From Croceicoccus pelagius (GTDB lineage: Bacteria > Pseudomonadota > Alphaproteobacteria > Sphingomonadales > Sphingomonadaceae), in the NCBI RefSeq assembly GCF_001661915.1, contig NZ_LYWY01000006.1, forward strand, positions 124,001 to 188,000: a DNA stretch of 64,000 nt, read 5' to 3'. The translations under genes were made by a program, and so were the position numbers. A model generated the notes under the pieces. That model did no database searches and was not told the DNA's origin. It worked only from the letters and a program-made list of their open reading frames with translations. Positions 32,068-64,000 of the stretch are shown in pieces (positions within the stretch are counted from its first letter, which is position 1; each line of letters opens with the position of its first letter).

Positions 32068-33744
32068 TCAGACCCCTTCAAGTAGCCTTTCGGCCTGCGC
32101 CCGCGCCTCGGGCGTGATTTCCGCGCCCGACAGCATGCGGGCGATCTCTTCCTGACGGCCACCCGCGTCCAATTGGCCGACCGAAGTGCGGGTCACCGTA
32201 CCCTCGCTGGACTTGGCGATCATGAAATGGATGTTTCCGCGCGCCGCGACTTGCGGGCTGTGCGTGACGGCCAGAAGTTGTCCGTTTTCGCCATTAGCGC
32301 TGGCAAGCCGCGCAAGGCGTTCGCCGATGGCGCTGGCCACCGCACCGCCGACGCCGCGGTCGATCTCGTCGAAGATGATGACGGCTGCCCCGCCCTCTTC
32401 CGCCAGTGCGACTTTTAGGGCGAGGATGAAGCGCGAAAGTTCGCCGCCCGACGCGATCTTGGCAAGCGGGGCAAACGGCGCACCGGGGTTGGTCGAGATC
32501 ACGAACTCGACCGCGTCCATGCCGTGCGGACCCCACTTGTCCTCGTCCGTACGAGTGACCAGCGTCTTGAACTTCGCCGCGTCCAATTTGAGCGGCGCAA
32601 GTTCCGCCGCCACCGCCTTGTCTAGACGCTTCGCCGCCTCCACCCGCTGCGCCGAAAGCGTTTCGGCCAGCGCGCGATAGTGCGATCCCTTTTCGAAAGC
32701 ATCGGCCTGCAGCGCCTTGATACGCCCTTCGCCGCCCTCGATCGCGTCGAGCTTGCCGCGCAGTTCGGCCAGTTTTGCGGGCAGATCATCGACCTGGCAG
32801 CCATGCTTGCGCGCTTCAGCCCGAAGGTCGAACAGGCGGGTTTCTACCTCGTCCAGCCGCGCCGGATCGAAGCTCAGCGCCTCAAGCGCGCGATCAACCG
32901 CCGCCTCGGCCTCGCTACCTTCGATCAGGCAGCGGTCCAGCGCGGATAGCGCATCGCCCAGCGCCTCGTGCTCGGGCGCGATACGGTCCAGCCTGCGCGC
33001 CGCGGCGCGAAGCTGCGCCAATGCGCTGTCAGACCCTGCAAAAAGGTGCTGCAGGCTGGCAAGGTCCTCGGAAAGCCGCTCGCCCTTCTGCATGTCGGCA
33101 CGCTGTCCGGCGAGATCTTCTTCCTCGCCCTCTTGCGGGGCGAGCCGTTCGAGTTCGGCCAGGTGCGCCTCGACCAATTCACGCTCCGCCGCCGCGTTTT
33201 CCGCAGCCTCGCGGGCTTCGGCCAAGGCGGCCTCCGATGCTTGCCACTTGCGCCATGCGCTGGTGACGCCCGCCTCGTCTGCCGCGGCATAGCGCGTCAG
33301 CAGCGCTCTGTGCCCGCGCGGGTTCACAAGGCCCCGATCGTCGTGCTGCCCGTGCAGTTCGACCAGCCAGGGCGCCAGAGCCCGCAAAGTCGCGACGCCC
33401 ACCGGCTGCCCGTTCACGAACGCCTTGGACCCGCCATCGGCCTTCAACTGACGGCGGATGACAAGAGCTTCGCCCGCCTCCATCTCGACACCCGCATCGT
33501 CCAGTACCTCGATGATGCCCGCCGGCATTTCGGGAAATTCGAAAGTCGCTGTCGCGCTGGCCTTGTCCTCGCCCGCGCGGACCAGACCGCTGTCGGCACG
33601 GTTGCCCAGCACCAGCCCCAGCGCGTCGAGCAGGATCGACTTGCCCGCTCCCGTCTCACCCGTCAGCACGCCCAGCCCGCGCGCGAACGCGAGGTCGAGA
33701 GCCTCGATCAGCACGATGTTCCGGATGGACAGGTTGGTCAGCAT
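32068..33744 (-). CDS. recN: DNA repair ATPase RecN
   Basis: 558 residues, an SMC-like ATPase. The Walker A motif is GETGAGKS (29-36), long coiled coils run from about 150 to 380, SGGELSRFILALK is the ABC signature, and VIIFDEIDRGVGGAVA is Walker B. It acts in double-strand-break repair. A LexA-like half-perfect site touches its start codon. It converges on the regulator gene with a 3-nt gap. Confidence 0.95.
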   Translation of the reverse strand: MLTNLSIRNIVLIEALDLAFARGLGVLTGETGAGKSILLDALGLVLGNRADSGLVRAGEDKASATATFEFPEMPAGIIEVLDDAGVEMEAGEALVIRRQLKADGGSKAFVNGQPVGVATLRALAPWLVELHGQHDDRGLVNPRGHRALLTRYAAADEAGVTSAWRKWQASEAALAEAREAAENAAAERELVEAHLAELERLAPQEGEEEDLAGQRADMQKGERLSEDLASLQHLFAGSDSALAQLRAAARRLDRIAPEHEALGDALSALDRCLIEGSEAEAAVDRALEALSFDPARLDEVETRLFDLRAEARKHGCQVDDLPAKLAELRGKLDAIEGGEGRIKALQADAFEKGSHYRALAETLSAQRVEAAKRLDKAVAAELAPLKLDAAKFKTLVTRTDEDKWGPHGMDAVEFVISTNPGAPFAPLAKIASGGELSRFILALKVALAEEGGAAVIIFDEIDRGVGGAVASAIGERLARLASANGENGQLLAVTHSPQVAARGNIHFMIAKSSEGTVTRTSVGQLDAGGRQEEIARMLSGAEITPEARAQAERLLEGV

Positions 33745-50754: not shown

Positions 50755-51669
50755 TCAGTCAGCGGGCAGCGGATTCCGGCGCGCCCATTGCTCTATCCCG
50801 GTCAGCCTTGCGGGAAGAAGCTTCAGGACCGCTTCCATGTCGACGCGAAAAGGCTTCTCGGGGCTTTGGTTGTACCATTCGTAGATGCGGCGCAGTTCGG
50901 ACATCAAACGCTCTGCCTCAAGGCTGGCGATGCCGTCGAAGGCGCGGCGCATGCCATCGCAAAATTCCGGAATGGGCTGACTGCGCCACGTGAGTTCGCG
51001 GCCCCACCCTTGCGATAGCCTTGCGGTCAGTTCTGGAAGACGGACGGTTTCAGGACCGCCGACCGGGATAGAACGTCCCGCAAGATCCGATCGCCCGATC
51101 GCCGCGATCATCAGGCGCGCGAGATCTTCGTGGCAAATCCAGCTGACTTCGAGATCGGGCGCGTGCGGATAACTGACGACGCCGCGTTCCACGATCGAGG
51201 GCCACGCCCAGCGCTGACGCAAGTTGTCGAGATAGACGACCGGCTCGATGCTTACACTATCGACTCCACTGGCAAAGAGCCGCGCGCGCATTTCGTGGCG
51301 AGCGTCCTGTGCGGCGAACCCGCGCTTTTCGGCGGGCACCGGCATGGACGTGTTGAACACGATCTGCGTCACGCCAGCTGTCTTTGCCGCGCGGCCGATG
51401 CGCGATGCCGCCTCGATCAGACCCGATGCCTCCTGAAAAGAGGTCGAGGGCAGGTTCACGAAGACGGTAGCGCAGCCTTCGAACGCGTTGGAAAGTCGCG
51501 TTTCGTCGCCAAGGTCTATCGCAGTTCCTGCGATCGGACCTGAAGGTGTCGCAACCTCGCCGCCCGATCGGCTGAGAGCGACAACCAGGAATCCCGCCAC
51601 GACCAGCTCGCGGACTTGCGCAGCGCCTTGCACCCCGGTGGCACCGATGACGGCGATCGTTGCGGGCAT
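50755..51669 (-). CDS. NmrA-like NAD(P)-binding protein
   Basis: 304 residues. The dinucleotide motif GATGVQG (9-15) is the NmrA/HSCARG form, followed by VVALSRSGGEVA, TVFVNLPSTSFQEASGLIEAA and VFNTSMPVPAEKRG. The usual catalytic Tyr-xxx-Lys of SDR enzymes is not evident, so it may be a redox sensor or an atypical reductase. Its ATG overlaps the TetR stop (TGATG), making it the third gene of a flavoprotein-TetR-NmrA operon. Confidence 0.82.
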   Translation of the reverse strand: MPATIAVIGATGVQGAAQVRELVVAGFLVVALSRSGGEVATPSGPIAGTAIDLGDETRLSNAFEGCATVFVNLPSTSFQEASGLIEAASRIGRAAKTAGVTQIVFNTSMPVPAEKRGFAAQDARHEMRARLFASGVDSVSIEPVVYLDNLRQRWAWPSIVERGVVSYPHAPDLEVSWICHEDLARLMIAAIGRSDLAGRSIPVGGPETVRLPELTARLSQGWGRELTWRSQPIPEFCDGMRRAFDGIASLEAERLMSELRRIYEWYNQSPEKPFRVDMEAVLKLLPARLTGIEQWARRNPLPAD

Positions 51670-52397
51670 CAGGGCTTGCCGGCCTTCGCCAACAGAGCCT
51701 CCAGCCGATCGATCTGCGCGCCGAGCCTTTCTTCCTGGTCCGAGCGGGCCTCTGCGCCGGTGCCGGGAATGCGAATGCCGCCGAGCAGGAGATCTACATA
51801 CGCGGCCACTTCGCCTGCAACGTCGAGCGGGCGTCCCGCGAATATCGTACGCATCGCGATATGCTCCAGCCCGCCAAACAGGGCATCGCGGACCATCGCG
51901 GCATTGATCTCGGGCCGTACTTCGCCCCGGTCGATCCCCCCTTGCACCGCATCGACGACGGTCTGCGCGAAGTCGTGATTGATCTTGTGCAGCGGGGTCC
52001 CACGATAGTCGTTCCAGCGGATCTCGCGATAGAAGATTGCGTGAAGCCGCGGCGTGGATTGGATCCCGCGCAGGAAGCGCAGCCCAATGGTCACCAACTG
52101 GGCATGCAGGTCCGCGATTGAAGGCAGGTCCTCGTTCAGCCGGGCGACGAAGGGCTTTGCCCACTGTGCAAAGACTTCGCTGAGGAGCGCCTGCTTGCTT
52201 TCGAAATACTTGTAGATCGTCGCTTCTGACACGCCCGCCCGCTTCGCGATCTGGGCCATGGCAAGGTCGGCGGTCCCTGCCTCTTCCAGAAGCTCGGTCG
52301 CCGCATCGAGAATTTCTTGCGGGCGCGCGCTTTTGCGCCGGTGCCATGCGGCGCGGGGCTTGGCGTCAGGTTCGCGCGGGTCTGGTGTCTTGCTCAT
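51669..52397 (-). CDS. TetR/AcrR-family transcriptional regulator
   Basis: 242 residues. The N-terminal helix-turn-helix is ILDAATELLEEAG...MAQIAKRAGVSEATIYKYFESKQALLSEVF (about 30-75). A ligand-binding helical domain follows, and a C-terminal heptad-like helix (QIDRLEALLAKA) may aid dimerisation. The start at 52397 (MSKTPDPREPD) avoids an extension overlapping the flavoprotein gene. It likely controls the neighbouring flavoprotein and possibly the TonB receptor. Confidence 0.88.
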   Translation of the reverse strand: MSKTPDPREPDAKPRAAWHRRKSARPQEILDAATELLEEAGTADLAMAQIAKRAGVSEATIYKYFESKQALLSEVFAQWAKPFVARLNEDLPSIADLHAQLVTIGLRFLRGIQSTPRLHAIFYREIRWNDYRGTPLHKINHDFAQTVVDAVQGGIDRGEVRPEINAAMVRDALFGGLEHIAMRTIFAGRPLDVAGEVAAYVDLLLGGIRIPGTGAEARSDQEERLGAQIDRLEALLAKAGKP

Positions 52398-52473
52398 AGG
52401 TCCGGAACCGGTCTGAAATCTGGGGGTGAAATAATCAAGTCGTCCCTGCGATTGTTGCCGGATCCGCCCACCA

Positions 52474-54174
52474 TCAGGCCGGCACGCCCGCTGCATGACG
52501 CCCTGCCACGAAGCCGAAAGTCATAGCCGGACCCAAGGTTGCACCGGCGCCCGGATAAGCCCCTGCAAAGACGCTCTTCTGGTCATTGCCGACAGCATAG
52601 AGCCCTTCGATCGGCGAACCGTCGGCACGAACGACCCGCGCGTGGATATCGGTGTTGAGACCCGCGAATGTCCCGATAAGGCCGCTTTCGATCTTCACGG
52701 CATAGAACGGCCCCTTGTCGAGCGGGCCGAGGCAGTTGTTGGGTCCGTGTTCGGGGTCGCCCTGATAGCGGTCGTATTCACGGGCACCGCGCCCGAATTC
52801 GGGATCGACTCCGTTGCGTGCGTTGCGGTTGAAGTTGTCGACAGTCTCCTCCAGCGCGGTGGCATCGATGCCGCACCTTGCAGCCAGCTCGCGCAAGGTG
52901 TCTGCGCGGTTCAAATAACCGCTGCGGATGTGCTGTCCGTGCGGGATCGGGAACGGGCGCGCCATGCCGATGCCCCATTTCCTGACCGCCGCGGCATCGC
53001 CGATCAGCCATGCCTCGGCCCGCGACTTGCCTTCGCAGGCCTTGATCAGGCGCGGCACAAAATCGTGATAGGCGCTGCTTTCGTCGCAAAAGCGTTTGCC
53101 ATCGGCGGTGACCGAAATGAAGCCCGGCTTCTGGCGATCGATCAGGTGCGGCCAGACTCCGGTGAAATCGTCGCTGTCGGGAAGGATTGAGACCGGCATC
53201 CAGGCCGCAGGGTGTGCGACCTCGTTGCTGAACACGCCGCCCGCGCTTTCGGCCAGCCGCGTCCCGTCGCCGGTATTGCCGGGCGCCGCGGGGTTACGGT
53301 GGTCGACGTTTCCGGCAGGTGCGGGAAAAGCCTCGGCGCGGCGCTCGGCATCCTGCGGGAAACCGCCGCAGGCCAGCACCACGCCCTTGCGGACGTTGAC
53401 GCGCACGGGTCCCTCACCCGTTTCCACTTCGGCGGCGGAGATGCGCCCGTCCTCTCCGATTAAGCGCTTGATCGGCGAATTGAGCCAAATCGGCGTATCC
53501 AAGTCGAACAGCGTGCGCGACAGCCGCGCAACAAGCGCGCGTCCACGCACCACCTGCTGGCCTTCGCCGAAACGCAGGACATCGAGAAAGTGCTTCGCCA
53601 GTTTTCGCGCCACGAAACCGGCCGCCCTGATCGAGCGGCCCGCTTTCATGAACTCGATCATTTCCACACCCGACCCGACCGCGAAGCCGAGAAACAGCGT
53701 TTGCGGCAGCTGGTTCTTGAGGGTGGACAGATGGTCACCCATGCGCTGCGCCTGGTAGTCGACCGTCCCGATCGAGCGGACGCACGACGAATGCTCGCTC
53801 TCCGAGTGATAGTCGGGATAGTCCATCCCGTAGAACTTCACTTCGGTTTCGTCCTCGAGGAAGCGGACCATGCGCGGCGCGACGTCGAGATAGGTCTCAA
53901 GCCGGTCGCGGTCGATATAGTTACCCGTCTCCTCGATCAGGTAGGCGCGGGCATTGTCGATCGAATCGGGCCGCCCCAGTGCCTCCTGCACGGCGACCGA
54001 ATGATGGTTGCCCGGCACCCAGAGGACGCCGCCCGATGTCGCGGTCGTCCCGCCGAACACAGCTTCCTTTTCAACAACAAGGACATCCAGACCCGCCTTT
54101 CGCGCCGTCACCGCAGCGGTGAGCCCGCTCGCCCCCGTGCCCGCGACCAGCAGGTCGACAGTCAATTCCCTCAT
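52474..54174 (-). CDS. FAD-dependent oxidoreductase, 3-ketosteroid-delta1-dehydrogenase-like
   Basis: 566 residues. The FAD-binding fold begins GTGASGLTAAVTARKAGLDVLVVEK (12-36), then FGGTTATSGGVLWVPGN. The C-terminus GNDQKSVFAGAYPGAGATLGPAMTFGFVAGRHA is the signature of KstD and related flavin dehydrogenases. It would introduce C=C bonds into a cyclic ketone or similar substrate. First gene of a three-gene operon, with GGGAGAGAAGG before its ATG. Steroid specificity is not proven. Confidence 0.88.
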   Translation of the reverse strand: MRELTVDLLVAGTGASGLTAAVTARKAGLDVLVVEKEAVFGGTTATSGGVLWVPGNHHSVAVQEALGRPDSIDNARAYLIEETGNYIDRDRLETYLDVAPRMVRFLEDETEVKFYGMDYPDYHSESEHSSCVRSIGTVDYQAQRMGDHLSTLKNQLPQTLFLGFAVGSGVEMIEFMKAGRSIRAAGFVARKLAKHFLDVLRFGEGQQVVRGRALVARLSRTLFDLDTPIWLNSPIKRLIGEDGRISAAEVETGEGPVRVNVRKGVVLACGGFPQDAERRAEAFPAPAGNVDHRNPAAPGNTGDGTRLAESAGGVFSNEVAHPAAWMPVSILPDSDDFTGVWPHLIDRQKPGFISVTADGKRFCDESSAYHDFVPRLIKACEGKSRAEAWLIGDAAAVRKWGIGMARPFPIPHGQHIRSGYLNRADTLRELAARCGIDATALEETVDNFNRNARNGVDPEFGRGAREYDRYQGDPEHGPNNCLGPLDKGPFYAVKIESGLIGTFAGLNTDIHARVVRADGSPIEGLYAVGNDQKSVFAGAYPGAGATLGPAMTFGFVAGRHAAGVPA

Positions 54175-54499
54175 GCCTTCTCTCCCTCGCCCGCACTCAT
54201 GCCGTCAGTTTAATGACCAGCACTCACTATTTGCGGGATAACGTATTTCTCCGGCTCAGCGCATCATGACCTGAAACCGGCACAAGGCCAAACAAAAAGT
54301 CATTCATGAATGTTTTGCTTGCCATTCGACCGAAAGAGGATCACAAGCCAATCCGCCAAATATGGGGCGGTCGGCGGCCACGCAGATGACATCCGACTGA
54401 CAATATCGAGGATTTGATACGAGACTCGTCATCCTGGGAATACAGGAAATGAGGCTTGCTTATGAATGCGGACATATCCGCAAGGGAGAGGGGAGAAAA
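54175..54499. other. Divergent intergenic region, flavoprotein operon / TonB receptor
   Basis: 325 bp without a gene. It carries three short palindromes: CATTCATGAATG (54301-54312), ACGAG-A-CTCGT (54419-54429) and TGCGGA-CATA-TCCGCA (54467-54482). The last is in the receptor leader, 17 bp before its ATG. Local AT content rises around 54290-54330. Confidence 0.7.
54301..54312. promoter_or_regulatory. 12-bp palindrome, candidate TetR operator
   Basis: CATTCATGAATG is perfectly self-complementary, in the region between two oppositely transcribed genes and close to a TetR gene. Binding is a guess. Confidence 0.4.
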
Positions 54500-56938
54500 A
54501 TGAGTTCCAATCACTGGAAAACCGTGTCGCGCGCTGCACTGGTGGCATCGATTTCGGCAATCGCGTTCGCCGCGCCTGCCCACGCGCAGGATGCATCGGG
54601 TGAACCCGCAGGGGTCGAACGTGAGGGCGGTCTGACCGAAATAATCGTGACGGCACGCAAGCGACAGGAATCGGCACAGGACATTCCCGTCGCCGTCACC
54701 GCCTTCGCGCCCGAGCAGATCGAGCGTTATGATATTTCGAGCGTGGAGCGCATCGCGGCATCCACCCCGAACCTGCAGGTCGGCAAGGCGACCACCGGTT
54801 CCGGCGCCCAGATCACGCTGCGCGGCATCGGCACCCCGGCCAGCGCGCTTGGCATCGAAAGTTCGACCGCGGTCATCGTCGACGGCGTCTATTACGGCAA
54901 CGGCCGCATCCTCAACGAAGGCTTCTTCGACCTTGCCCGCATCGAGGTTCTGAAAGGTCCGCAGGCGCTGTTCTTCGGGAAGAACGCGACGGCAGGCGTC
55001 ATCTCGATCACGACGGCCGATCCCACCGACTATTTCGAAGGCTCGACCCGCGTCGGATATGAAATCAAGGGCAAGCGCGCCTTTATCGAACAGATCATTT
55101 CCGGGCCGCTTAGCGACACGCTCTCGGCCCGTGTCGCGCTACGCGGTGCGAAGATGTGGGGTGGCTATACCCGCAACTACGCAACCGACCTGCCGCTGAC
55201 TTTCACCGATCTCGACACCGGCACGACTTTCAACACCGTGGCAACGGCAGTTGCCGACAAAACGCCGCAGGAAAAGGAACTGCTGGGCCGCGCTTCGCTG
55301 AAGTGGGAACCGACAAGCGACCTGACCAGCGTGACCAAGATGTCGATGGGTTGGAACCGCGCGAACGATCCGGGATGGAACAACATCATCTTCGCCTGCG
55401 ACGGCGGCAATTCGACGCTGATGCCCGATGTGCCGTGCGAGCGTAAGTGGTATTCCTATCACAACAACGCGCCCGAAGAAGTCGGCGCCGTGTTCCCCTA
55501 CGCCTACGAAGGCGGCAACGTCGGCGCGACCTACAAGTCGTTCCAGGTTACCAACAACACCAACTACGATCTTGGCGACGTCGTGCTGACAGCGGTTCTG
55601 AACTATCAGAACCAGCGCAACCGCTGGTTCTCGGACTCCGACTACCAGCAGCGCGTGACGCAGATCTTCGTGGGCAGCTACGAGAAGTGGAAGGCCTTCA
55701 GCGGCGAATTCCGCGCCCAGACGCAGTACGATGGTCCGCTAAACGCCATGGTTGGCGTGCTCTACCAGGATTCCAAGCTGCTGGCCGACCAGAACGTGTT
55801 TTTCGGCAACGTCCAGAAGAGCAACGAGGACCCGATCAACCAGTTCATGGCGTTCAGCAAGTATTCCACCACCGATGGCGAGACTATCTCTCCCTTCGCG
55901 CAGGTGGTCTGGAACGTCGTGCCCTCGGTCGAGCTTTCGGGCGGCGTTCGCTATACGCACGAAACCAAGGACAGCTACTTCATCCATCCGTTCATCCGGC
56001 CAGGGATTGCCTATCGTGAGAACGATCCGATCAACACGAAGCAGACGTTCACCGACTGGACCCCGGAAGTCACCGTGGCTTACAAGCCGTCGCGCGCGCT
56101 CAACATCTATGCGGGCTACAAGGCCGGTTACAAGTCGGGCGGCTTCTCGAACGAGAGCACCTATACCAACGCCAGCGTTGCGGGCGATCTGGACTTCGAG
56201 CCGGAACGCGCCAAGGGGTTCGAGGGCGGCATCAAGTCCACGCTGGCCGACAACCAGCTGCGTCTCGACCTTGCGCTCTACAGCTACAAGTACATCAACC
56301 TGCAGGTCGACTTCTTCGAAGCGCAGTCCTTCCGTTTCGTGACGACCAATGCCGGTTCGGCACGCACCAAGGGTGTCGAACTGTCGGGCGAATTCGCTCC
56401 GCACGCGGCGCCGGGCCTGTCAGTGCGCGGGTCGATCAACTACAACGACGCGCACTACATCGACTTCATCGCCCCATGCGTTACCGGCCAGACCCCGGCA
56501 CAGGGCTGCAACCTCACCAGCAACCCGTTCGGTGGCCTTCTCGGCCAGGATCTGGGCGGCGTGACGATGGCGATGGCACCCAAGTGGACCGGATCGCTCG
56601 GCTTTGCCTACAAGACCGATGTGTCCGACGGCATGTCGGTCGGCATCAGCAGCGATGCCCGCTACTCCAGCTCGTATAACGCATCGCCTTTCGCCAATCC
56701 GATCGCGACGCAGGGCGAATACGTCAATCTCGACGCCAGCCTGTTCCTGAAGAGCGACGCGGGTTGGGAACTGGGCCTGATCGGCAAGAACCTGACTAAC
56801 CAGTTCGTCGTTTCGGGCGCGCTTGACGCACCTTCGACGGGTTCGGGCACTGGCACGGATGCCGGCCGGCTTGCCGACCAGCGCGGCTATGCCAATACGC
56901 CGCGCACGGTGCAGCTGCAGCTGACCTATCGTTACTGA
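54500..56938 (+). CDS. TonB-dependent outer-membrane receptor
   Basis: 812 residues. The signal peptide ends near PAHA-QDA (about residue 30). The TonB box region and plug begin at GLTEIIVTARKRQESAQDIPVAVTAF, and ITLRGIGTPASALGIESSTAVIVDGVYYGNGRILNEGFFDLARIEVLKGPQALFFGKNATAGVI is the plug core. A 22-strand barrel follows, ending LQLTYRY with a terminal aromatic. It belongs to the large sphingomonad group taking up organic substrates rather than siderophores. It probably imports the substrate of the neighbouring oxygenases. GGGAGA precedes the start. Confidence 0.95.
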   Translation: MSSNHWKTVSRAALVASISAIAFAAPAHAQDASGEPAGVEREGGLTEIIVTARKRQESAQDIPVAVTAFAPEQIERYDISSVERIAASTPNLQVGKATTGSGAQITLRGIGTPASALGIESSTAVIVDGVYYGNGRILNEGFFDLARIEVLKGPQALFFGKNATAGVISITTADPTDYFEGSTRVGYEIKGKRAFIEQIISGPLSDTLSARVALRGAKMWGGYTRNYATDLPLTFTDLDTGTTFNTVATAVADKTPQEKELLGRASLKWEPTSDLTSVTKMSMGWNRANDPGWNNIIFACDGGNSTLMPDVPCERKWYSYHNNAPEEVGAVFPYAYEGGNVGATYKSFQVTNNTNYDLGDVVLTAVLNYQNQRNRWFSDSDYQQRVTQIFVGSYEKWKAFSGEFRAQTQYDGPLNAMVGVLYQDSKLLADQNVFFGNVQKSNEDPINQFMAFSKYSTTDGETISPFAQVVWNVVPSVELSGGVRYTHETKDSYFIHPFIRPGIAYRENDPINTKQTFTDWTPEVTVAYKPSRALNIYAGYKAGYKSGGFSNESTYTNASVAGDLDFEPERAKGFEGGIKSTLADNQLRLDLALYSYKYINLQVDFFEAQSFRFVTTNAGSARTKGVELSGEFAPHAAPGLSVRGSINYNDAHYIDFIAPCVTGQTPAQGCNLTSNPFGGLLGQDLGGVTMAMAPKWTGSLGFAYKTDVSDGMSVGISSDARYSSSYNASPFANPIATQGEYVNLDASLFLKSDAGWELGLIGKNLTNQFVVSGALDAPSTGSGTGTDAGRLADQRGYANTPRTVQLQLTYRY

Positions 56939-56991
56939 CTTGGGTCGTGACTGACTTGGAGCGCTACTGAGCGTTAGAGCTCCTCACTGTG

Positions 56992-57032
56992 GGGCGCAGG
57001 TGTTTCCAATCCGCCTGCGCCCTGCCTTTTTT
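56992..57032 (+). terminator. Terminator of the TonB receptor gene
   Basis: GGGCGCAGG (56992-57000) and CCTGCGCCC (57014-57022) form a perfect 9-bp stem with a 13-nt loop, followed by TGCC and six T residues, 54 bp past the stop codon. Confidence 0.88.
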
Positions 57033-57044
57033 CCCAGCAGACCG

Positions 57045-58391
57045 TCAGGAACGCCCGGGCAACCGACCGTCCAGATAGGCATCGAGCGTTGCGTGAAAAT
57101 GCCGGATGCGGCTTTCCATGTAGGTCGCAAGCTGAACCGTCCCGGTGCCCGAAGCTTTCAGGCCGGTCTGCACGTGCGGCATGTTCGCCATGTCCTGATC
57201 GATCACGGGGCCAAGCGCTGGCAGTTCGGTCGCGTTCGACCACGGCTCGTCCTCGCCCAGCCAGTGGACGGGCACACCGCGTGGGCGGGTCTCGCCTTTC
57301 TTCACCGGCTTAAGGATCATCACTTCCATGATGCAGCTGTCGACATCGCGCCCGTTCGGCCGCCAGCGATAGACGATGTTCGGCACAAAGCCGCCCCACG
57401 GCGCGAAGTTGGGAAATACGTTGTAGACGATGGCGTCGAGCATTTCGGCATCGGTCGCCTCATCCAGGTCGCTTCGCGTCGCGCGCGCCATGCTGCTGCG
57501 CGCAGTCTCGCCCAGAATCGCACGCGGGGGCAGCGCGTCCGCGTCCACGCCTTCGGGCACGTCCCTGCCCCACAGGCCGAACATCCCTTCCAGCACTTCC
57601 CCGTCGCTCGGCCTCTCGCGCAAGTGCGGGCTCGGCTCGCCGAAGGCGGCAAGGTTGCGGTTCACGTGGGGGCCATAGATGTCGTATTCCGACCCCACAT
57701 CCGAAAAGAACGGCAGGATCTGAGGATGGGTCGCAATGACGTGATAGCTTTCCATGAAAGCTTCCTGCGCCACTTTCCAGTTGCACGGGATAACCCGCGC
57801 GACGTGCGCGGCCTTCCAACGGCTCTCCAGCCCCCATCGCTCGAAGTGGTCGGGCAGGACGCCGAGGTATTCCTCCAGAGACGGTGCATCCGCATCGAAA
57901 TTCACGAAGACGAACCCGCCCCAGCGCCCGATGCGGATGACCGGCAGGTGCAGGTCGTCATCGGACAGTGCGGCGAATTCCTGACGGCACGGCACCGACC
58001 GGATCGAGCCGTCCAAGTTCCAGCTCCACCCGTGAAAGCCGCAGCGCATGTTCTCCACCCGCCCGCTTTCGTCCATCAGCTTGCGCCCGCGGTGAAGGCA
58101 GGAATTGGGGAACGCCTCGATCGTGTCGGGCCCGCTGCGCACGACAAGGACCGAGCGGTCGATGATGTCATAGACGTGGACGTCGCCGACTTCGGGAATG
58201 TCCTCTTCACGGCAGGCCATCTGCCAGACTTTGGACCACATCATCTCGGCTTCGCGGTCAAAGAAGGCCCGGTCGATGTAACGTTCCGCCCCGATCGGCG
58301 CGCTGCCGAAATCATGGCGATGTTCGTCGCGCAGAACGTCGGGTGCGGCGCGGCTGTCGGTATCGAGCAGCTGGCGATAGGTGGTGACCAT
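57045..58391 (-). CDS. Rieske ring-hydroxylating oxygenase alpha subunit (second gene)
   Basis: 448 residues. The Rieske [2Fe-2S] site is Cys98-x-His100 and Cys117-x2-His120 (CLHRG, CGFHG). The mononuclear iron site is His217-x4-His222 in ESYHVIATHP. The C-terminal catalytic domain is longer than in its neighbour. Such proteins oxygenate or demethylate aromatic, steroid or quaternary-amine substrates. It follows the other alpha subunit by 12 nt with GGAG before its ATG. No beta subunit, ferredoxin or reductase gene is adjacent. Confidence 0.93.
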   Translation of the reverse strand: MVTTYRQLLDTDSRAAPDVLRDEHRHDFGSAPIGAERYIDRAFFDREAEMMWSKVWQMACREEDIPEVGDVHVYDIIDRSVLVVRSGPDTIEAFPNSCLHRGRKLMDESGRVENMRCGFHGWSWNLDGSIRSVPCRQEFAALSDDDLHLPVIRIGRWGGFVFVNFDADAPSLEEYLGVLPDHFERWGLESRWKAAHVARVIPCNWKVAQEAFMESYHVIATHPQILPFFSDVGSEYDIYGPHVNRNLAAFGEPSPHLRERPSDGEVLEGMFGLWGRDVPEGVDADALPPRAILGETARSSMARATRSDLDEATDAEMLDAIVYNVFPNFAPWGGFVPNIVYRWRPNGRDVDSCIMEVMILKPVKKGETRPRGVPVHWLGEDEPWSNATELPALGPVIDQDMANMPHVQTGLKASGTGTVQLATYMESRIRHFHATLDAYLDGRLPGRS

Positions 58392-58403
58392 AGCTCGTAC
58401 TCC

Positions 58404-59606
58404 TCAGTGGCTCTCGATCCAGGGGTCGAGCACGCGGTCGAGCTTCAGCCCTTCCGGCACGGCATCGCCCATCAGGCGGTCGAGCTCCATGTGCCAGGCA
58501 TAGATGCGCCGCTCCTGGTACGAGAGGGTCAGCCCTTCGAAACCCTTGGCCTCGACCGATTTCTGGATCGACGGTGCGAACTGGGTGTCTTCTTCGAGGA
58601 TGCGGACGAGGTTCGAAATCCGCGTCGGCCACATCTCGTGCCCTTCCGACCCTTCGGGCCCAAACCAGTGCACGTCGACGATCATCGACCGGTCGTCCGT
58701 CGGCCAGAAGGTGAGGAAGGGCATCCCCGTCGTGGAAGGCGGCGTCACGAGGTTGGGGAAGATGTTGTAGGACGGATTCTGTTCGAAGATGTCCTCGGCC
58801 CCGTCGATCTCGGGCATCCCGCGTGTACCGGGATCGCGCCAGTCGGGATCGCGATGCGCGGTCGTCATCATCGAATGCCCGCGCTCCCACAGGTTCATGA
58901 AAGAGGACCGACTGTCGAGGAAGCGGTCCACGGTGTTCGGGTGGATAGATTTGAGGTGATAGGTTTCGAGAAACGCATCGATCAGGACCTTGACCTGACA
59001 GTCGATGACGAAGCTGTCCGACTGGATGTGGCGCAGGCGGTCGACGCCAAGATTCGACCAGTCGTCGACGATCCCGCCGAGGAAATCCAGGAGCGGCTCG
59101 GCATCGGGATTCTCGTTGACGAAAACCCAGTTGCCCCACGTTTCACAGCGAACCTTCTTCAGCCCGTGGCACGACTTGTCGAAGTCGGGGAAGTCGCGCA
59201 TCTCGCGCACGGCATTAAGGTTGCCGGCAAGGTCGTATGTCCAGCCGTGATAGCGGCAGAAGAAACCCTGCGTCGCGCCTTCCGCCTTTTCGACCAGCGG
59301 CGCGCCGCGGTGGCTGCAGCTGTTGTAAAAGGCGCGAATCTCGTTGCCCTTGCCGCGCACGATGACGATCGGCGAACCCGTCCGGTCCCAAAGGCGATAG
59401 TCGCCCGGGTTCGGAAGTTCGTCGACGTGCAGCGCGTAGAGCCACACGTTCTGCCAGAGATAGGTCTTCTCCAACGCGAGGAAGCCGGGGTCGGTGTAAC
59501 GCGCCGCCGGGATCACCGGCAGGCGCGGAAAAGCCTCCGGCGGGGCCTTGCGCGCCTTCTCGGCGGCCATGCCCTCATAAAGCGTCATCTCGAATGCGGT
59601 GTCCAT
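58404..59606 (-). CDS. Rieske ring-hydroxylating oxygenase alpha subunit (first gene)
   Basis: 400 residues. The Rieske ligands are Cys97-x-His99 and Cys117-x2-His120 (CSHRG, CRYHG). The iron site is His217-x4-His222 in ETYHLKSIHP. It shares ligand spacing but little other sequence with the downstream paralogue, so the two may form a mixed oligomer or act on successive substrates. It is the promoter-proximal gene; GGAGAG precedes the ATG, and a perfect FNR/FixK-type palindrome lies 59 bp upstream. Confidence 0.93.
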   Translation of the reverse strand: MDTAFEMTLYEGMAAEKARKAPPEAFPRLPVIPAARYTDPGFLALEKTYLWQNVWLYALHVDELPNPGDYRLWDRTGSPIVIVRGKGNEIRAFYNSCSHRGAPLVEKAEGATQGFFCRYHGWTYDLAGNLNAVREMRDFPDFDKSCHGLKKVRCETWGNWVFVNENPDAEPLLDFLGGIVDDWSNLGVDRLRHIQSDSFVIDCQVKVLIDAFLETYHLKSIHPNTVDRFLDSRSSFMNLWERGHSMMTTAHRDPDWRDPGTRGMPEIDGAEDIFEQNPSYNIFPNLVTPPSTTGMPFLTFWPTDDRSMIVDVHWFGPEGSEGHEMWPTRISNLVRILEEDTQFAPSIQKSVEAKGFEGLTLSYQERRIYAWHMELDRLMGDAVPEGLKLDRVLDPWIESH

Positions 59607-59663
59607 CGGCTCTCTCCGGTTTCTCGTTACGGCGATTTCCTAGCCGTTCATGGCGCGGCTCGA

Positions 59664-59679
59664 CTTGATCGGCATCAAG
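59664..59679. promoter_or_regulatory. FNR/FixK-type palindrome TTGAT-N4-ATCAA
   Basis: CTTGAT (59664-59669), CGGC, ATCAAG (59674-59679): a perfect match to the Crp/Fnr-family anaerobox TTGAT-N4-ATCAA. It is 59 bp upstream of the Rieske gene start and about 123 bp upstream of the divergent flavoenzyme start. Confidence 0.55.
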
Positions 59680-59801
59680 AAACCTGCAAAAAAACATTCT
59701 TGCCTGCTTTTTATATAAATGACGCAAAATACCGTTGTGTCGGCATCGCCCCGCCTCGTAGAGTAACAAGCGTCTTATAAAAACTTTTTTGGAGAAGATC
59801 G

Positions 59802-61757
59802 ATGAAGCTGCTGGAACCGATTCGCCTCGGCTCGAAGGAAGTCCGCAACCGGGTCGTCTCGACGGCCCATGCAGCATACCTCGATTTCTTCCAGCCCGGA
59901 TCCACCGGCGAACGCTACATGGCCTATCAGGAACGGCGCGCACGGGGCGGGGCCGGAATGATCATCCTGACTGCGATGCACGTTCATGAAAGCAGCGGAC
60001 TGCTCAATCATTTCAACTACGAGGAAAAGGACATTGCGGCCAAGTTCCGCCAGCTGTCCTCGCGCGTGCACGAACACGGCACGACCGCGATCTCGCAGCT
60101 GTTCCACTACGGTATGCAGTCGATCTCTTCCGTGCGGCCCGACCTGCACCCGCTCTGGGGCTGGTCCGCGCGCGTCAATACCGAAGGCGAGATCGGCCAC
60201 GCGATGACCGACGAGGAAGTCGAGCTCGTCATCGATGCTTTCTGCCGGACTGCGCTGATCGCGGTCGAAAACGGGATGGACGGCGTCGAACTTCACGGCA
60301 CGCACGGCTACCTGATCCAGCAAAGCTTTACGCCGATGTTCAACCAGCGCACCGACCGCTGGGGCGACCCGCTGGCCTTCACCACCGAACTTGCGCGCCG
60401 CGTGCGGGCGACCATCGGGCCGGACAAGGTCATGGGTTTTCGCACGTCTGCCGACGATCTCGTGCCGCCGGAAAAGGGCGGTGTCGGGCCGGACAAGTGC
60501 CGCGAATACACGGTCGAATTCGTGAAGACCGGCGCGTTTGACTACCTCAACCATTCCGAAGGCCAGGGCGGATCGCACTATGCGCTTGCGATCGGGTCCT
60601 ATCGCCACAAGTTCGGCGAATGGCTGCCCCTCACCCGCAAACTGCGCGAGGCAATCGGGGCCAGCATCCCCGTGCTGGGCGTGGGCAAGATCCCGACGCC
60701 AGACCTTGCCGAAGGCGCACTGCAGAACGGCGACTGCGACATGGTCGGCATGACCCGCGCGCAGATTTCCGACCCCGACCTCGTCAGGAAACTAATGGAG
60801 GGCAAGGCGTCGAAGATCAGGACCTGCACCGGCGCGAACCAGGGCTGCATCGACCGCGCGCGCTATCCCATCACCTGTTTCCAGAACCCCGAAGTAGGCG
60901 AGGAAAACCGCCTGCGCGAAATGGACGCGGTGGCCACGACACCGAAAAAGCTGCTTGTCGTCGGCGGCGGACCTGCAGGCATGAAAGCCGCCGAAATCGC
61001 CGCGCGTCGCGGCCATAGCGTGACGCTGGCCGAAGCGGGATCGATCCTTGGCGGAAGGCTCAACATGGTCGGCACGATGGGCGCGGCCAGCAACCTGCTT
61101 TCGGCGACCGCGTGGATCGAACAGGAACTGGCCGAGCTTCCCGTCGAAGTGCAGCTTCAAACTTCGGTCGACGAAGCTTACCTGCGCGCCCTTGCCCCCG
61201 AAGCCATCGTGCTCGCGACCGGAAGCATGCCTCAAAGCGCGCTATCATGCGAAGACGATGGTTCGGTCGTCGTGCTTTCCTCTGACGAAGCGGCAAGAGG
61301 CGAGTTCGAGGACCAGAGGTTCGACATGGCCGGAACACGCGCGCTCATGATCGACCTTCGCGGCAATTACGAAAGCGCGCTGGTGCTGGAATCGCTTGTC
61401 GAACGCGGCGTCACAGTCACGGTCGCAACGCCCTTCCAGGTGTTCGGCCCGAACCTTGGCTTTACACACATGAACGACCTGCTCGCCCGCCTGCTGCGCA
61501 AGGGCACAACCCTGTTGCCACTGACCAAGCTGGCGAAAGTTGCCGATGGCGTCGCCACCTTGCGCCACTCGGTTTCGGGACAGCAGAGCAAGGAAGAGTT
61601 CGACTTCATCGTATCGGGCGCACCGCCGCGGGCGAGCGATGATCTGCGTGCGCTGTGCGAAAGCCTTGCCCCGACCTACCTTGCCGGCGACGTCATCTCG
61701 CCGCGATCGGCGCTCGAAGCCATTCGCGAGGGCGACCGCGTCGCGCGCAAGATCTAG
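59802..61757 (+). CDS. OYE/2,4-dienoyl-CoA-reductase-type flavoprotein with FAD/NAD domain
   Basis: 651 residues. The N-terminal FMN TIM barrel (1-~335) has HGTHGYLIQQSFTPMFNQRTDRWG (from 165). The linker that normally binds a 4Fe-4S cluster reads Cys342-x2-Ala345-x3-Cys349-x9-Cys359, so the second cysteine is Ala. The C-terminal FAD/NAD(P) domain begins LLVVGGGPAGMKAAEIAARRGHSVTL. Relatives (FadH, TMADH) reduce dienoyl-CoA or demethylate amines. Here it would reduce a C=C bond of a ring product. GGAG precedes the start. The stop overlaps the convergent TetR gene by 4 bp. Confidence 0.9.
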   Translation: MKLLEPIRLGSKEVRNRVVSTAHAAYLDFFQPGSTGERYMAYQERRARGGAGMIILTAMHVHESSGLLNHFNYEEKDIAAKFRQLSSRVHEHGTTAISQLFHYGMQSISSVRPDLHPLWGWSARVNTEGEIGHAMTDEEVELVIDAFCRTALIAVENGMDGVELHGTHGYLIQQSFTPMFNQRTDRWGDPLAFTTELARRVRATIGPDKVMGFRTSADDLVPPEKGGVGPDKCREYTVEFVKTGAFDYLNHSEGQGGSHYALAIGSYRHKFGEWLPLTRKLREAIGASIPVLGVGKIPTPDLAEGALQNGDCDMVGMTRAQISDPDLVRKLMEGKASKIRTCTGANQGCIDRARYPITCFQNPEVGEENRLREMDAVATTPKKLLVVGGGPAGMKAAEIAARRGHSVTLAEAGSILGGRLNMVGTMGAASNLLSATAWIEQELAELPVEVQLQTSVDEAYLRALAPEAIVLATGSMPQSALSCEDDGSVVVLSSDEAARGEFEDQRFDMAGTRALMIDLRGNYESALVLESLVERGVTVTVATPFQVFGPNLGFTHMNDLLARLLRKGTTLLPLTKLAKVADGVATLRHSVSGQQSKEEFDFIVSGAPPRASDDLRALCESLAPTYLAGDVISPRSALEAIREGDRVARKI

Positions 61758-62338
61758 CGATGATCAGGAATATGGGCCGCAAGCGCCCTGCCCAGCGCGT
61801 CGCGCTGGCTGGCCGCATCCCAGCGCTCGGGGTCGAACACCGCCTGCACCGCGATACCGTAGAGCGAGGCGACGATGCCGCGCGCGATCGCCATCCGGTC
61901 CGCCTCGGCCGTGCCTTCGGGCAGGATATCGGCCATCGCGAGATGCGCATTGACCGCGGCAACAATCTCGCGGTTTCGGGCTTTCTGCTCGGCCTTCAGC
62001 ACCGGGCTGCACAGCGCCTCGGACCAGAACGCGATATAGATCAGCCAGTCGTCCCGCTGCTCGGGATTGAGAGGCAGGATCGCCTCGAGCTGTCCGACGA
62101 AGCCTTCGCCCGCACTCTCTTCGCGCCGGCGCCTGACGCGCGCCACCGAGTGGCGATAGGTCGCCAGCAGAATCTCGGCCTTGTCCTTGAAATAGTGAGT
62201 CACCGCGGTCGTGCTGCAATCCAGCCTTGTAGCCAGCGCCCGGACCGTAACGGCGTCCAGACCGCCTTCGCAGATCAGCGCGTGCGCCGCTTCGGTAACT
62301 TCGCGCATTCTCTCGATAGGATCGACTTCGACCGGCAT
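61754..62338 (-). CDS. TetR/AcrR-family transcriptional regulator (second)
   Basis: 194 residues. Helix-turn-helix at about 13-55 (ALICEGGLDAVTVRALATRLDCSTTAVTHYFKDKAEIL), then a helical ligand domain of the TetR_C type. It is divergent from the MFS gene across 128 bp that contain a long-range 10-bp inverted repeat, and convergent with the flavoenzyme gene. It likely represses the transporter or the oxygenase genes. Confidence 0.88.
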   Translation of the reverse strand: MPVEVDPIERMREVTEAAHALICEGGLDAVTVRALATRLDCSTTAVTHYFKDKAEILLATYRHSVARVRRRREESAGEGFVGQLEAILPLNPEQRDDWLIYIAFWSEALCSPVLKAEQKARNREIVAAVNAHLAMADILPEGTAEADRMAIARGIVASLYGIAVQAVFDPERWDAASQRDALGRALAAHIPDHR

Positions 62339-62343
62339 TTGCC

Positions 62344-62410
62344 CCGTACTTCCCGCAACCGTGATCGGTTCAATATGACTAGGAGCATTTTGGCCCGCGA
62401 GGAAGTACGG
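62344..62410. repeat. 10-bp inverted repeat flanking the TetR/MFS promoter region
   Basis: CCGTACTTCC (62344-62353) recurs as its exact complement GGAAGTACGG (62401-62410), 47 bp apart. One arm is 6 bp from the TetR start, the other 57 bp before the MFS start, so each promoter could have one copy of the same operator. Confidence 0.55.
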
Positions 62411-62466
62411 TGCGCCGCAAATAGCGCCGAAAAGGCGCGAAAACAGAACGACAAAAGGGAGCAGGC

Positions 62467-63789
62467 ATGACCACGCAAGAGCCGGAATACAAGGCGCCAG
62501 TCCAGATACCGCAAAAGGCAGGCTGGGGTGCCTGGGCCATGGTCGTCGTCCTGACCCTTGCCTATACTGTCAGCTTCATCGATCGGCAGGTGCTGAACCT
62601 GCTCGTCGAACCTCTGAAGGCCGAATTCGACCTTTCCGATACTCGGTTGAGCCTGTTACAAGGACTGGCCTTCACCTCGGCCTATATCGTCTTCAGCCCG
62701 ATCTTCGGTCGGATGAGCGACACCTCGAACCGCCGCAACATCGTGCTCGGCGGCGTTGCGGTGTGGAGCATCTTCACAGCCTTGTGCGGACTGGCGCGCA
62801 ACTACTGGCAGATGTTCGGCGCGCGTGTCGGAGTCGGCGCGGCAGAGGCCAGCCTGACGCCTGCCGCATGGTCGATGATCGCGGACCGCTTTCCGCCGCA
62901 CCTCCTGCCGCGGGCGATGTCGATCCTGTTGATGGGCCCCTACATCGGCGGCGGCCTTGCCCTGATCTTTGGCGGACTGCTGCTGGAATTTGCCGAGAAC
63001 AACAGCTTCGGATCGCTCGATGCGTGGCAGGTCGTGTTCATCGCCGCCGCCGTGCCCGGTGTCCTGATCTGCGCGATTCTGCTCCTTATCCGCGAGCCTG
63101 CTCGCAGTGCCGACAAGGACGGAGCCGAAGAAGCCGCAATGCCGCTTGCCGAAGTCTGGCGCGGTTTCAGGGCGCGGGGGAAGTTCTACTTCAATTTCTA
63201 TGCGGGGATGAGCGGGATCGTCATCGCGCTCTACGCCTTTCCGGCTTGGATGCCTGCCGTCCTGATGCGCAAGTTCGGGGCAGAGGCGGCCTCGGTCGGC
63301 CTGCATTACGGCACGCTGGTACTGATCGGTGGGTCGCTCGGCGTTCTTGCCGGACCGACATTGGGCAGGCTGCTGGAAAAGAAGGGGCTCAAGGGCAGCC
63401 TCATGGTCGTCCCGCTGATCGGGGCCAGCGCGATCTTCCTGCTCTCGATAGGGCTTGCGCTGGCAGGTTCCTACGAGGCGGGACTGGTCTTCGGAGGTCT
63501 CGCCAGCTTTGCCTACTCGCTGCCAATGGCCGCAGCATCGGGAGCGCTGCAGATCGTCACCCCGAACCGCATGCGCGGCATGGCGAGCGCGATCTATGTC
63601 TTCATCGTTTCCGTCATCGGCCTTGGTGCCGCGCCGACGATCGTCGCGCTCATCACCGATCTCGTGATCGGAGACGAAGCGCGGGTCGACCAGTCGCTTG
63701 CGATCACTTGTGCAGGAGCTGCTCTGGTCTCACTTTTCCTCCTGGTGCGCGCGCGACGGGCCTATATCGATCTTGCGGCGAACGACTGA
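62467..63789 (+). CDS. MFS transporter
   Basis: 440 residues with 12 predicted membrane helices and a central loop (about 210-235). The first helix has YTVSFIDRQVLNLLVEPLKAEFDLSDTRLSLLQG, the form common in sphingomonad MFS carriers of the aromatic-acid or spinster-like group. FGRMSDTSNRRNIVLGG is the loop 2-3 motif and ARVGVGAAEASLTPAAWSMIADRFPP the helix 4-5 motif. AAAGGGAG precedes the ATG. It may import or export an intermediate of the neighbouring catabolic genes. Confidence 0.93.
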   Translation: MTTQEPEYKAPVQIPQKAGWGAWAMVVVLTLAYTVSFIDRQVLNLLVEPLKAEFDLSDTRLSLLQGLAFTSAYIVFSPIFGRMSDTSNRRNIVLGGVAVWSIFTALCGLARNYWQMFGARVGVGAAEASLTPAAWSMIADRFPPHLLPRAMSILLMGPYIGGGLALIFGGLLLEFAENNSFGSLDAWQVVFIAAAVPGVLICAILLLIREPARSADKDGAEEAAMPLAEVWRGFRARGKFYFNFYAGMSGIVIALYAFPAWMPAVLMRKFGAEAASVGLHYGTLVLIGGSLGVLAGPTLGRLLEKKGLKGSLMVVPLIGASAIFLLSIGLALAGSYEAGLVFGGLASFAYSLPMAAASGALQIVTPNRMRGMASAIYVFIVSVIGLGAAPTIVALITDLVIGDEARVDQSLAITCAGAALVSLFLLVRARRAYIDLAAND

Positions 63790-64000
63790 CGCTTTGTGAT
63801 CGTCGAGGCTGGCACATGCCGACCAGATTCTTACAGCATGGACAGTGCCTCGACGGCTTGGCTGGAGCGGGAGCGGTAGCCAGTTGGCTACTTCGGGGCC
63901 AGAAAGCAGATTTTCAGGTAACGCCCCCAATTACTGCCAGTCATCAAGCGCCTTATTTCTTCGTTTGGTTGTAAACCACCAATGGGATCGCCATCTTAAG
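63790..64000. other. Right-edge region without a supported gene
   Basis: 211 bp after the MFS stop. Reading frames are short on both strands, and composition becomes more AT-rich toward the edge. A small dyad TAGCCA-GT-TGGCTA is present near 63880. It could be the border of a decayed element or just an intergenic space; nothing can be named. Confidence 0.5.

Follow-up and report, generated by a model that had tools for sequence, protein, structure and literature searches.

In the 64,000-nt stretch analysed here (the window; Croceicoccus pelagius contig NZ_LYWY01000006.1, positions 124,001 to 188,000), a nine-gene block at positions 50755-63789 proved to be an accessory island of the genus Croceicoccus that has been inserted ahead of dnaN. 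Both of its divergent promoters carry a palindrome, AAACAnTCATGAnTGTTT, which is also present at nine places in a 42-kb coenzyme A (CoA)-thioester cluster on contig C25 of this genome. The palindrome common to the island and C25 is a new observation, and no description of the cluster, its pair of Rieske oxygenases, the operator or the C25 pathway was found in the open literature by searches partly aimed at CntA or at a species name. It is suggested, with a probability of about two in three, that the island is the horizontally moved front end, for uptake and oxidation, of a conserved sphingomonad CoA-thioester pathway, to which it would be tied by a shared TetR-type operator. This reading starts from features that were computed directly, namely the gene content, the insertion, the different locations of the block, the tandem Rieske unit, the intact catalytic residues, the shared palindrome and the co-localisation of homologues on pSA1 of Novosphingobium resinovorum. 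If correct, it represents a mobile catabolic module plugged into a resident pathway by carrying the operator of that pathway.

Gene content of the island and the shared palindrome

All nine genes listed by the first-pass annotation, a reading of the sequence made without database searches, were found at 50755-63789. An apparent frame of 530 amino acids at 50755-52347 proved to be two genes with touching ends (NmrA-like, 50755-51669, and TetR1, 51669-52397), and the start of the TonB-dependent receptor was placed by us at 54500, the probable position. The features are as follows.

50755-51669, minus strand: NmrA-like NAD(P)-binding protein (Pfam PF05368, 66 bits)
51669-52397, minus strand: TetR1 regulator (Pfam TetR_N; 54% identity to a TetR close to the Rieske genes of locus L012 and 55% to a TetR in pSA1)
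52474-54174, minus strand: KstD-like flavin adenine dinucleotide (FAD) dehydrogenase (PDB 7p18, 310 bits; catalytic Tyr/Tyr/Tyr/Gly kept)
54297-54315, no strand: putative operator palindrome in the divergent promoter of the KstD-like and TonB receptor genes (pattern comparison)
54500-56938, plus strand: TonB-dependent receptor (Pfam PF00593, PF07715)
57045-58391, minus strand: RO1, Rieske oxygenase alpha subunit (Pfam PF00848, PF00355)
58404-59606, minus strand: RO2, Rieske oxygenase alpha subunit, ending 12 nt before RO1 (Pfam PF00848, PF00355)
59692-59710, no strand: putative operator palindrome in the divergent promoter of the RO2 and OYE genes (pattern comparison)
59802-61757, plus strand: OYE/FadH-like flavoenzyme, the second of four iron-sulphur cysteines being Ala (Pfam PF00724; TIGR03997, 459 bits against a cut-off of 793)
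61754-62338, minus strand: TetR2, with a BetI-type C-terminus (Pfam PF00440, PF13977)
62467-63789, plus strand: MFS transporter (Pfam PF07690)
63790-64000, no strand: remainder of the insertion within the window, the insertion running on to about 65468

The palindrome emerged when the three Croceicoccus copies of the block were compared at both divergent promoters, and was searched for with the pattern AAACANTCNTGANTGNTTT at up to two mismatches. As the pattern was tuned on the sites in the island, in C25 and in N. marinum, those sites are not independent of it, and G001, L091, L173, pSA1 and the C25 region of PP1Y served as further tests. The window contains two sites (54297 and 59692), both in the island, compared to a mean of 0.03 and a maximum of 1 in 60 dinucleotide shuffles, while nine sites were detected in a 60-kb stretch of C25 (mean of 0.0 in 60 shuffles). 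Over the whole C. pelagius genome (G000; 3.30 Mb, 40 contigs) 21 strand matches merged into 15 places: nine at C25:116-158 kb, two in the island and four elsewhere, with none for the reversed pattern. Twelve places each were found in C. gelatinilyticus (G013; nine C25-type, two in the island, one elsewhere) and C. ponticola (G004; nine on two contigs, one in the island, two elsewhere). The congener G001, which carries the RO2 paralogue typical of C25 and no island, has 11 (nine in one stretch, none in an island, two elsewhere). For G005 and G003, both without this paralogue at E<=1e-150, the numbers were 0 and 1. Reversed-pattern controls over six genomes gave 0, except for one forward and one reverse match in G004. 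From the nine sites of the island-free G001 and their near absence from G005 and G003, it follows that the sites are independent of TetR1 and TetR2. A near-identical operator-like site, AAACATnCTTGACTTGTTT, was also seen at G000:C34:6048, and likewise once each in G013 C22, G004 C15 and G001 C3, outside the cluster.

Pfam analysis of the C25 cluster identified pyrroloquinoline quinone (PQQ) dehydrogenases, E1 subunits, an AMP-binding CoA ligase, short-chain dehydrogenases, five Rieske oxygenases, a MaoC protein, an acyl-CoA thioesterase, an enoyl-CoA hydratase, a thiolase with a ChsH2-type OB-fold partner, a class III CoA transferase, a TIM-barrel protein and a TetR. Reading of the sequence added TonB receptors, more TetRs and proteins resembling SnoaL. 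Two related regulator genes are each preceded by the palindrome:

C25:141381-142031: TetR3, palindrome 75-150 nt upstream
C25:157226-157858: TetR3b, a related second copy, palindrome 75-150 nt upstream

The genes for TetR3 relatives in Sphingobium RAC03 (L091, 65%) and L013 (63%) are likewise closely preceded by palindromes, in L091 with 0 mismatches. If the proposed front-end role of the island is correct, a named regulator, operator and gene set would allow direct tests for the substrates of both a conserved sphingomonad pathway and an orphan Rieske pair. In related clusters, genes for ThuA-domain and TIM-barrel proteins hinted at chemistry of the glycoside or quinate type.

The accessory nature of the block, already claimed by the first-pass annotation, was borne out by the borders and the distribution of the genes. 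At the orthologous locus both flanks lie 155-687 nt apart and are free of the island in eight of 13 relatives within the genus (G001, G004, G005, G006, G007, G008, G011 and G012), the right flank of the other five being beyond the stretch compared. Because the empty sites resume at sequence equivalent to 65468-65473, where the dnaN side begins (dnaN being named by reading of the protein), the insertion measures approximately 14.7 kb and ends outside the window. Positions 50763-63768 are collinear, at 84-86% nucleotide identity, with a block at a different locus in C. gelatinilyticus. In C. ponticola most of the block lies at a third locus, interspersed with genes for a PQQ-type dehydrogenase, a second FAD_binding_2 flavoprotein, a GMC oxidoreductase, an AMP-binding enzyme and two proteins that look like MaoC but gave no Pfam match; the 30 kb compared there contained no match to MFS. 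Whole or most of the block is thus at other loci in two of the 13 other genus genomes, and RO1, OYE, KstD and the TonB receptor were found at island-level identity in the same three of 14. The closest named relatives of RO1 were C. gelatinilyticus 1NDH52 (96%) and C. ponticola GM-16 (87%) in a collection scan from which very near records were possibly omitted. When the best 3-4 candidates per genome were scored, RO2 was found at E<=1e-150 in two of 396 genomes of the order (C. pelagius and G055) and at E<=1e-110 in two of 398 of the phylum (C. pelagius and G062, 53%), and OYE at E<=1e-120 in C. pelagius alone among the 396.

Within the window the island shows no deviation in base composition, and the sole tRNA detected, at 32808, is far from it. 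No integrase was recognised on reading the right border and a repeat search of L113:2600-20000 gave no repeat pair at the two borders. The interval between the MFS gene and dnaN (63790 to about 65468) holds a run of small open reading frames, one cold-shock-protein-like by reading, for which the short empty sites have no room and which does not align to the G013 copy.

Linkage to the C25 pathway in other genomes

The island would be expected to feed the C25 pathway since both carry the same DNA control signal, and parts of the two were found together in other genomes. In N. resinovorum pSA1, 15 of the 28 C25 proteins tested have counterparts at 62-89% within a single 46-kb stretch, which also contains homologues of KstD (74%), the TonB receptor (66%), the MFS carrier (60%) and TetR1 (55%). 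The KstD side is divergent from the receptor there and, as in G004, another KstD-like gene lies between them. In Paracoccus pantotrophus a KstD homologue (56%) is located among genes for an RO2-like protein, an enoyl-CoA hydratase, AMP-binding enzymes, a CoA transferase, an OB-fold protein and a thiolase. The Rieske pair lies within approximately 1 kb (N. marinum) and 6 kb (L012) of a C25-type RO2 paralogue, amid genes that by reading resemble a CoA pathway. On PP1Y Mpl, 17 of the 28 proteins (61-90%) and five palindromes were found, far from the Rieske pair. A palindrome precedes RO2 both in PP1Y (two mismatches) and in N. marinum (one). Given the arrangements in pSA1, Paracoccus, N. marinum and L012, some genomes have the parts together, while in Croceicoccus and PP1Y they lie apart and are linked through the operator. 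The first-pass annotation had regarded scattered, unlinked genes in close relatives as an argument against its reading. The genes are linked in all three carriers of the genus, whereas a 37-kb stretch of PP1Y and a 21-kb stretch of N. marinum hold the Rieske pair without an adjoining KstD or OYE match. A related cluster was also seen in N. aromaticivorans pNL2 (L217, 150-190 kb), with many Rieske genes, GMC, OB-fold/thiolase, E1/E2 and a TonB receptor.

From these data we infer the transport roles, the DNA binding, the identity of the regulator, the order of reactions and the type of substrate in the following scheme. The TonB receptor and MFS carrier may import a bulky compound of low solubility, alicyclic or in part aromatic. 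Desaturation of a ring next to a keto group would fall to the KstD-like enzyme, with the OYE-like enzyme acting on a neighbouring C=C bond in either direction, and the closely coupled RO2 and RO1 would hydroxylate the skeleton with electrons from ferredoxins and reductases encoded elsewhere. No ferredoxin or reductase domain was found by Pfam among the nine island proteins, and the genome has ten Fer2 matches elsewhere. The products would pass into the CoA-thioester pathway of C25:114-158 kb. The palindrome AAACAnTCATGAnTGTTT is probably bound, in the promoters of C25 as well as in the two divergent ones of the island, by a TetR3-type repressor of that cluster; module and core pathway would therefore be induced together.

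A number of results weigh against this scheme. The operator-like site between KstD and receptor in pSA1 has three mismatches, and pSA1 has no OYE match and an RO1 relative of just 46%. The 49-kb C25-type stretch of PP1Y gave no match for the enoyl-CoA hydratase, thiolase, OB-fold protein or CoA transferase, and no palindrome with up to two mismatches was present in the KstD-like clusters of Paracoccus (L214), N. resinovorum HR1a (L216) or N. aromaticivorans pNL2 (L217); on account of these two results our confidence was lowered slightly. The RO2/OYE site of G004 is degenerate (four mismatches), the region before RO2 in L012 has five mismatches, that is, no site, and eight gammaproteobacterial loci with upstream sequence, together with L014, show 2-8. 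Since most gammaproteobacterial pairs stand without the palindrome and among unrelated genes, the Rieske pair can work outside the regulon. The C25-type RO2 paralogue is present in seven of 14 genus genomes, and although all three island carriers have it compared to four of the 11 others, this co-occurrence is not significant (p ~0.10). The island also has two TetR genes of its own, which possibly add control.

It should also be noted how the first-pass annotation fared on the pathway as a whole. Its linked accessory set for uptake, oxygenation and dehydrogenation, with the look of a peripheral route, was upheld. A CoA-thioester pathway encoded elsewhere in the genome is indicated as the downstream part by the shared operator and by the gene order on pSA1. 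Its statement that CoA-ligase genes are lacking holds for the C. pelagius copy but not for that of G004, which has an AMP-binding gene of the CoA-ligase family. The substrate class it favoured (steroid, terpenoid or polycyclic) was not settled, given a Rieske pair that is not KshA-like and KstD and OYE scores below cut-offs.

Flavoenzymes, substrate and control of the island

The KstD-like protein aligns with 3-ketosteroid dehydrogenases (PDB 4c3x and 7p18), and the four catalytic residues, which we take to be Tyr119, Tyr318, Tyr487 and Gly491 in their numbering, were found to be kept when the alignment was read by eye. No NCBIfam model reached its curated cut-off for either this protein or the OYE-like protein. 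For the former the scores were 658 for PRK06134 (cut-off 747), 559 and 508 for two further unnamed FAD-dependent oxidoreductase models, 497 for ChcC2, and 432 (cut-off 789) and 400 (cut-off 788) for the KstD models. The OYE-like protein retains the FadH layout, an OYE barrel with C-terminal nucleotide-binding domains, and its third-best NCBIfam match was BaiCD (279 bits). The replacement of its second iron-sulphur cysteine by Ala is shared by its closest paralogue (58%), on contig C17 of G004. That paralogue is part of a second catabolic cluster (G004:C17:38000-72000; L168, L169), with a TetR2-like gene, several Rieske genes, a TonB receptor, a P450 and a GMC-like gene, flanked by transposase-like open reading frames.

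The substrate may be a steroid-like, terpenoid or simpler alicyclic compound. A monocyclic or terpenoid alicyclic substrate is possible, if less than probable; a ring of the cyclohexanone type would be converted by the KstD- and OYE-like enzymes, and its degradation completed by the oxygenases and the enzymes of C25. The ChcC2-like score of the KstD-like protein is consistent with this, as are the P450, GMC, OYE and KstD genes in the sister clusters of G004 and the membrane PQQ dehydrogenase of C25, of the glucose/quinate/shikimate family, which scored above its cut-off. However, none of the enzymes was recognised as diagnostic of a known terpenoid pathway, and the sister clusters may serve other substrates.

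A self-contained steroid module, with OYE and KstD as Δ4- and Δ1-3-ketosteroid dehydrogenases, the Rieske pair as ring hydroxylase and the rest of a bile-salt or steroid pathway elsewhere in the genome, appears rather doubtful. The catalytic residues of KstD, the BaiCD match and the thiolase with a ChsH2-type OB-fold protein in C25 would suit it. OYE-family 5β-Δ4-ketosteroid dehydrogenases are described for Sphingobium Chol11 and R. jostii (PMC8044976), and members of this family can thus be steroid Δ4-dehydrogenases in a sphingomonad (also PMC8399759). These two sources describe 5β-Δ4-KSTD1 as active and TonB receptors as more abundant on bile acids in Chol11, where no clear KshB was reported. 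On the other hand, every KstD and OYE score lies under its curated cut-off, and the KstD-like protein is closer to the ChcC2 model than to the KstD models and closer still to the three unnamed ones. Four iron-sulphur cysteines are predicted for 5β-Δ4-KSTD1 (PMC8044976), one of which is missing here, and the Rieske pair is not KshA-like. As other OYE homologues tested there were in part inactive on the bile salts used (PMC8044976), membership of the OYE family alone gives no substrate.

With regard to control, it was considered that the island might be under its own TetR1 and TetR2 alone, with the resemblance of the palindromes incidental or the palindrome being a TetR1 site. A TetR1 homologue does accompany the gene set in L012 and pSA1. 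This explanation is nevertheless unlikely, as the island-free G001 has nine sites in its C25-type stretch, sites with 0 mismatches lie at the TetR3 gene of RAC03 and shuffled sequence yields almost none.

The tandem Rieske pair

RO2 and RO1 form an older tandem unit that also occurs in Novosphingobium and in gammaproteobacterial metagenome-assembled genomes. Among the 80 RO1 loci compared, which were the best 80 of 200 relatives, RO2 was found directly upstream on the same strand in 13, all of them among the 16 loci with an RO1 identity of at least 56%. These were two Croceicoccus copies, N. marinum, one Sphingomonadales metagenome-assembled genome and nine others labelled Gammaproteobacteria, Steroidobacteraceae, Janthinobacterium or Proteobacteria; the pair is also carried by PP1Y plasmid Mpl. 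The gap of 12 nt seen here is replaced in four of the 13 pairs by a 4-nt overlap of the RO2 stop with the sole RO1 start found, and in a fifth this is one of two options. Reading of the loci showed mostly unrelated genes around the gammaproteobacterial pairs, and no substrate clue recurred in most of these neighbourhoods, amidohydrolase-like genes lying downstream in some. Palindrome-like sites were seen within approximately 53 nt before RO2 in two gammaproteobacterial pairs, L019:8705 and L022 (two and three mismatches). An RO1 relative (58%) without an adjacent RO2 was also seen in Sinisalibacter aestuarii (L020, 5320-14147), among what by reading are hydantoinase-subunit-like genes and a molybdenum hydroxylase pair.

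The Rieske and iron ligands and the bridging Glu214 were invariant in alignments of 33 RO2 and 32 RO1 sequences (from the latter L029 and L033 were removed for stop codons, L041 and L047 after a check, and others for size). The bridging residue was Glu in 75 of 75 RO1 and 48 of 48 RO2 rows. The RO1 counts cover the 75 of 80 loci with a match of sufficient length, the Asp not being reached by the alignment in 13 of these, and the RO2 counts cover rows with at least 38% identity, in which the same gene under several locus ids is counted repeatedly. The predicted models had pLDDT (predicted local distance difference test) values of 93.1 for RO2 and 91.8 for RO1, and a fold search with them returned alpha subunits that included CntA and terephthalate dioxygenase, at 16-21% identity. 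In the C. pelagius genome as a whole, the Rieske alpha catalytic family gave 26 matches.

KshA was considered because of the KstD-like neighbour, and was rejected: no KshA-named chain occurred among the PDB sequences at E<=1e-5 (31 for RO1, 30 for RO2) or among the 50 fold matches listed for each, and the bridging residue of KshA is Asp (PMC6153880). The bridging Glu, the equivalent of E205 in CntA (PMC7948474), prompted consideration of a CntA-like function, which was likewise rejected, with Tyr203 and the Cys pair replaced. In the comparison proposed by the first-pass annotation the pair thus matched neither KshA nor the enzymes of quaternary ammonium compounds, and no close relative turned up among characterised proteins. 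It is highly improbable that these oxygenases have a quaternary ammonium compound as substrate, like CntA and GbcA, for although both proteins have the bridging Glu and His-His-Asp features of Group V, the top fold match of RO2 is CntA and the best NCBIfam model of both is GbcA, Tyr203, Cys206 and Cys209 of CntA are Phe, Thr/Ser and Leu/Val, the Cys-X-X-Cys near the iron described for some Group V enzymes (PMC10952381) is absent from all 75 RO1 and 48 RO2 rows, and a TonB receptor and KstD would be ill-suited to carnitine-like substrates.

It is conceivable, at odds of well under one in four, that RO2-RO1 is a mobile two-gene unit encoding an alpha-only Rieske system of a new type. Its two alpha subunits, different from each other and both apparently complete, would be translated in a coupled manner and form a single oxygenase, hetero-oligomeric or obligately sequential, for a bulky alicyclic substrate; sphingomonads would have recruited the unit under the palindrome of a chromosomal CoA-pathway repressor.

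Comparison with known systems

The bile-salt genes of Sphingobium Chol11 (PMC8399759, PMC8044976) resemble the proposed system in their A-ring dehydrogenases of the OYE and KstD families, TonB receptors, Rieske oxygenases without a clear KshB and CoA-dependent side-chain enzymes. They differ in that the island has a Rieske pair which is not KshA-like, OYE and KstD proteins below cut-offs and an OYE minus one iron-sulphur cysteine. RO1 and RO2 share the alpha-subunit fold, the His-His-Asp iron site and the bridging Glu with CntA and GbcA of Group V (PMC7948474, PMC10952381), but lack Tyr203 and the Cys206/Cys209 pair, have no reductase gene in the island and reach 16-21% identity in fold alignments.

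As in the EdcR estrogen regulon (PMC8700777), a TetR-type repressor and a palindrome in the promoters of a sphingomonad catabolic cluster are proposed here, although the published EdcR palindrome, TnnCnnTACnAnTnGTAnnGnnA, is a different sequence. PheR of phenanthrene degradation belongs to the IclR family and has a GCAACG core, but similarly couples uptake with Rieske catabolism through one regulator in a sphingomonad (PMC13273656). The 46-kb stretch of N. resinovorum pSA1, while differing from the island in its missing OYE match and its RO1 relative of just 46%, resembles the proposed system in combining 15 of 28 C25 proteins with KstD, TonB receptor, MFS and TetR1 homologues, the KstD side being divergent from the receptor.

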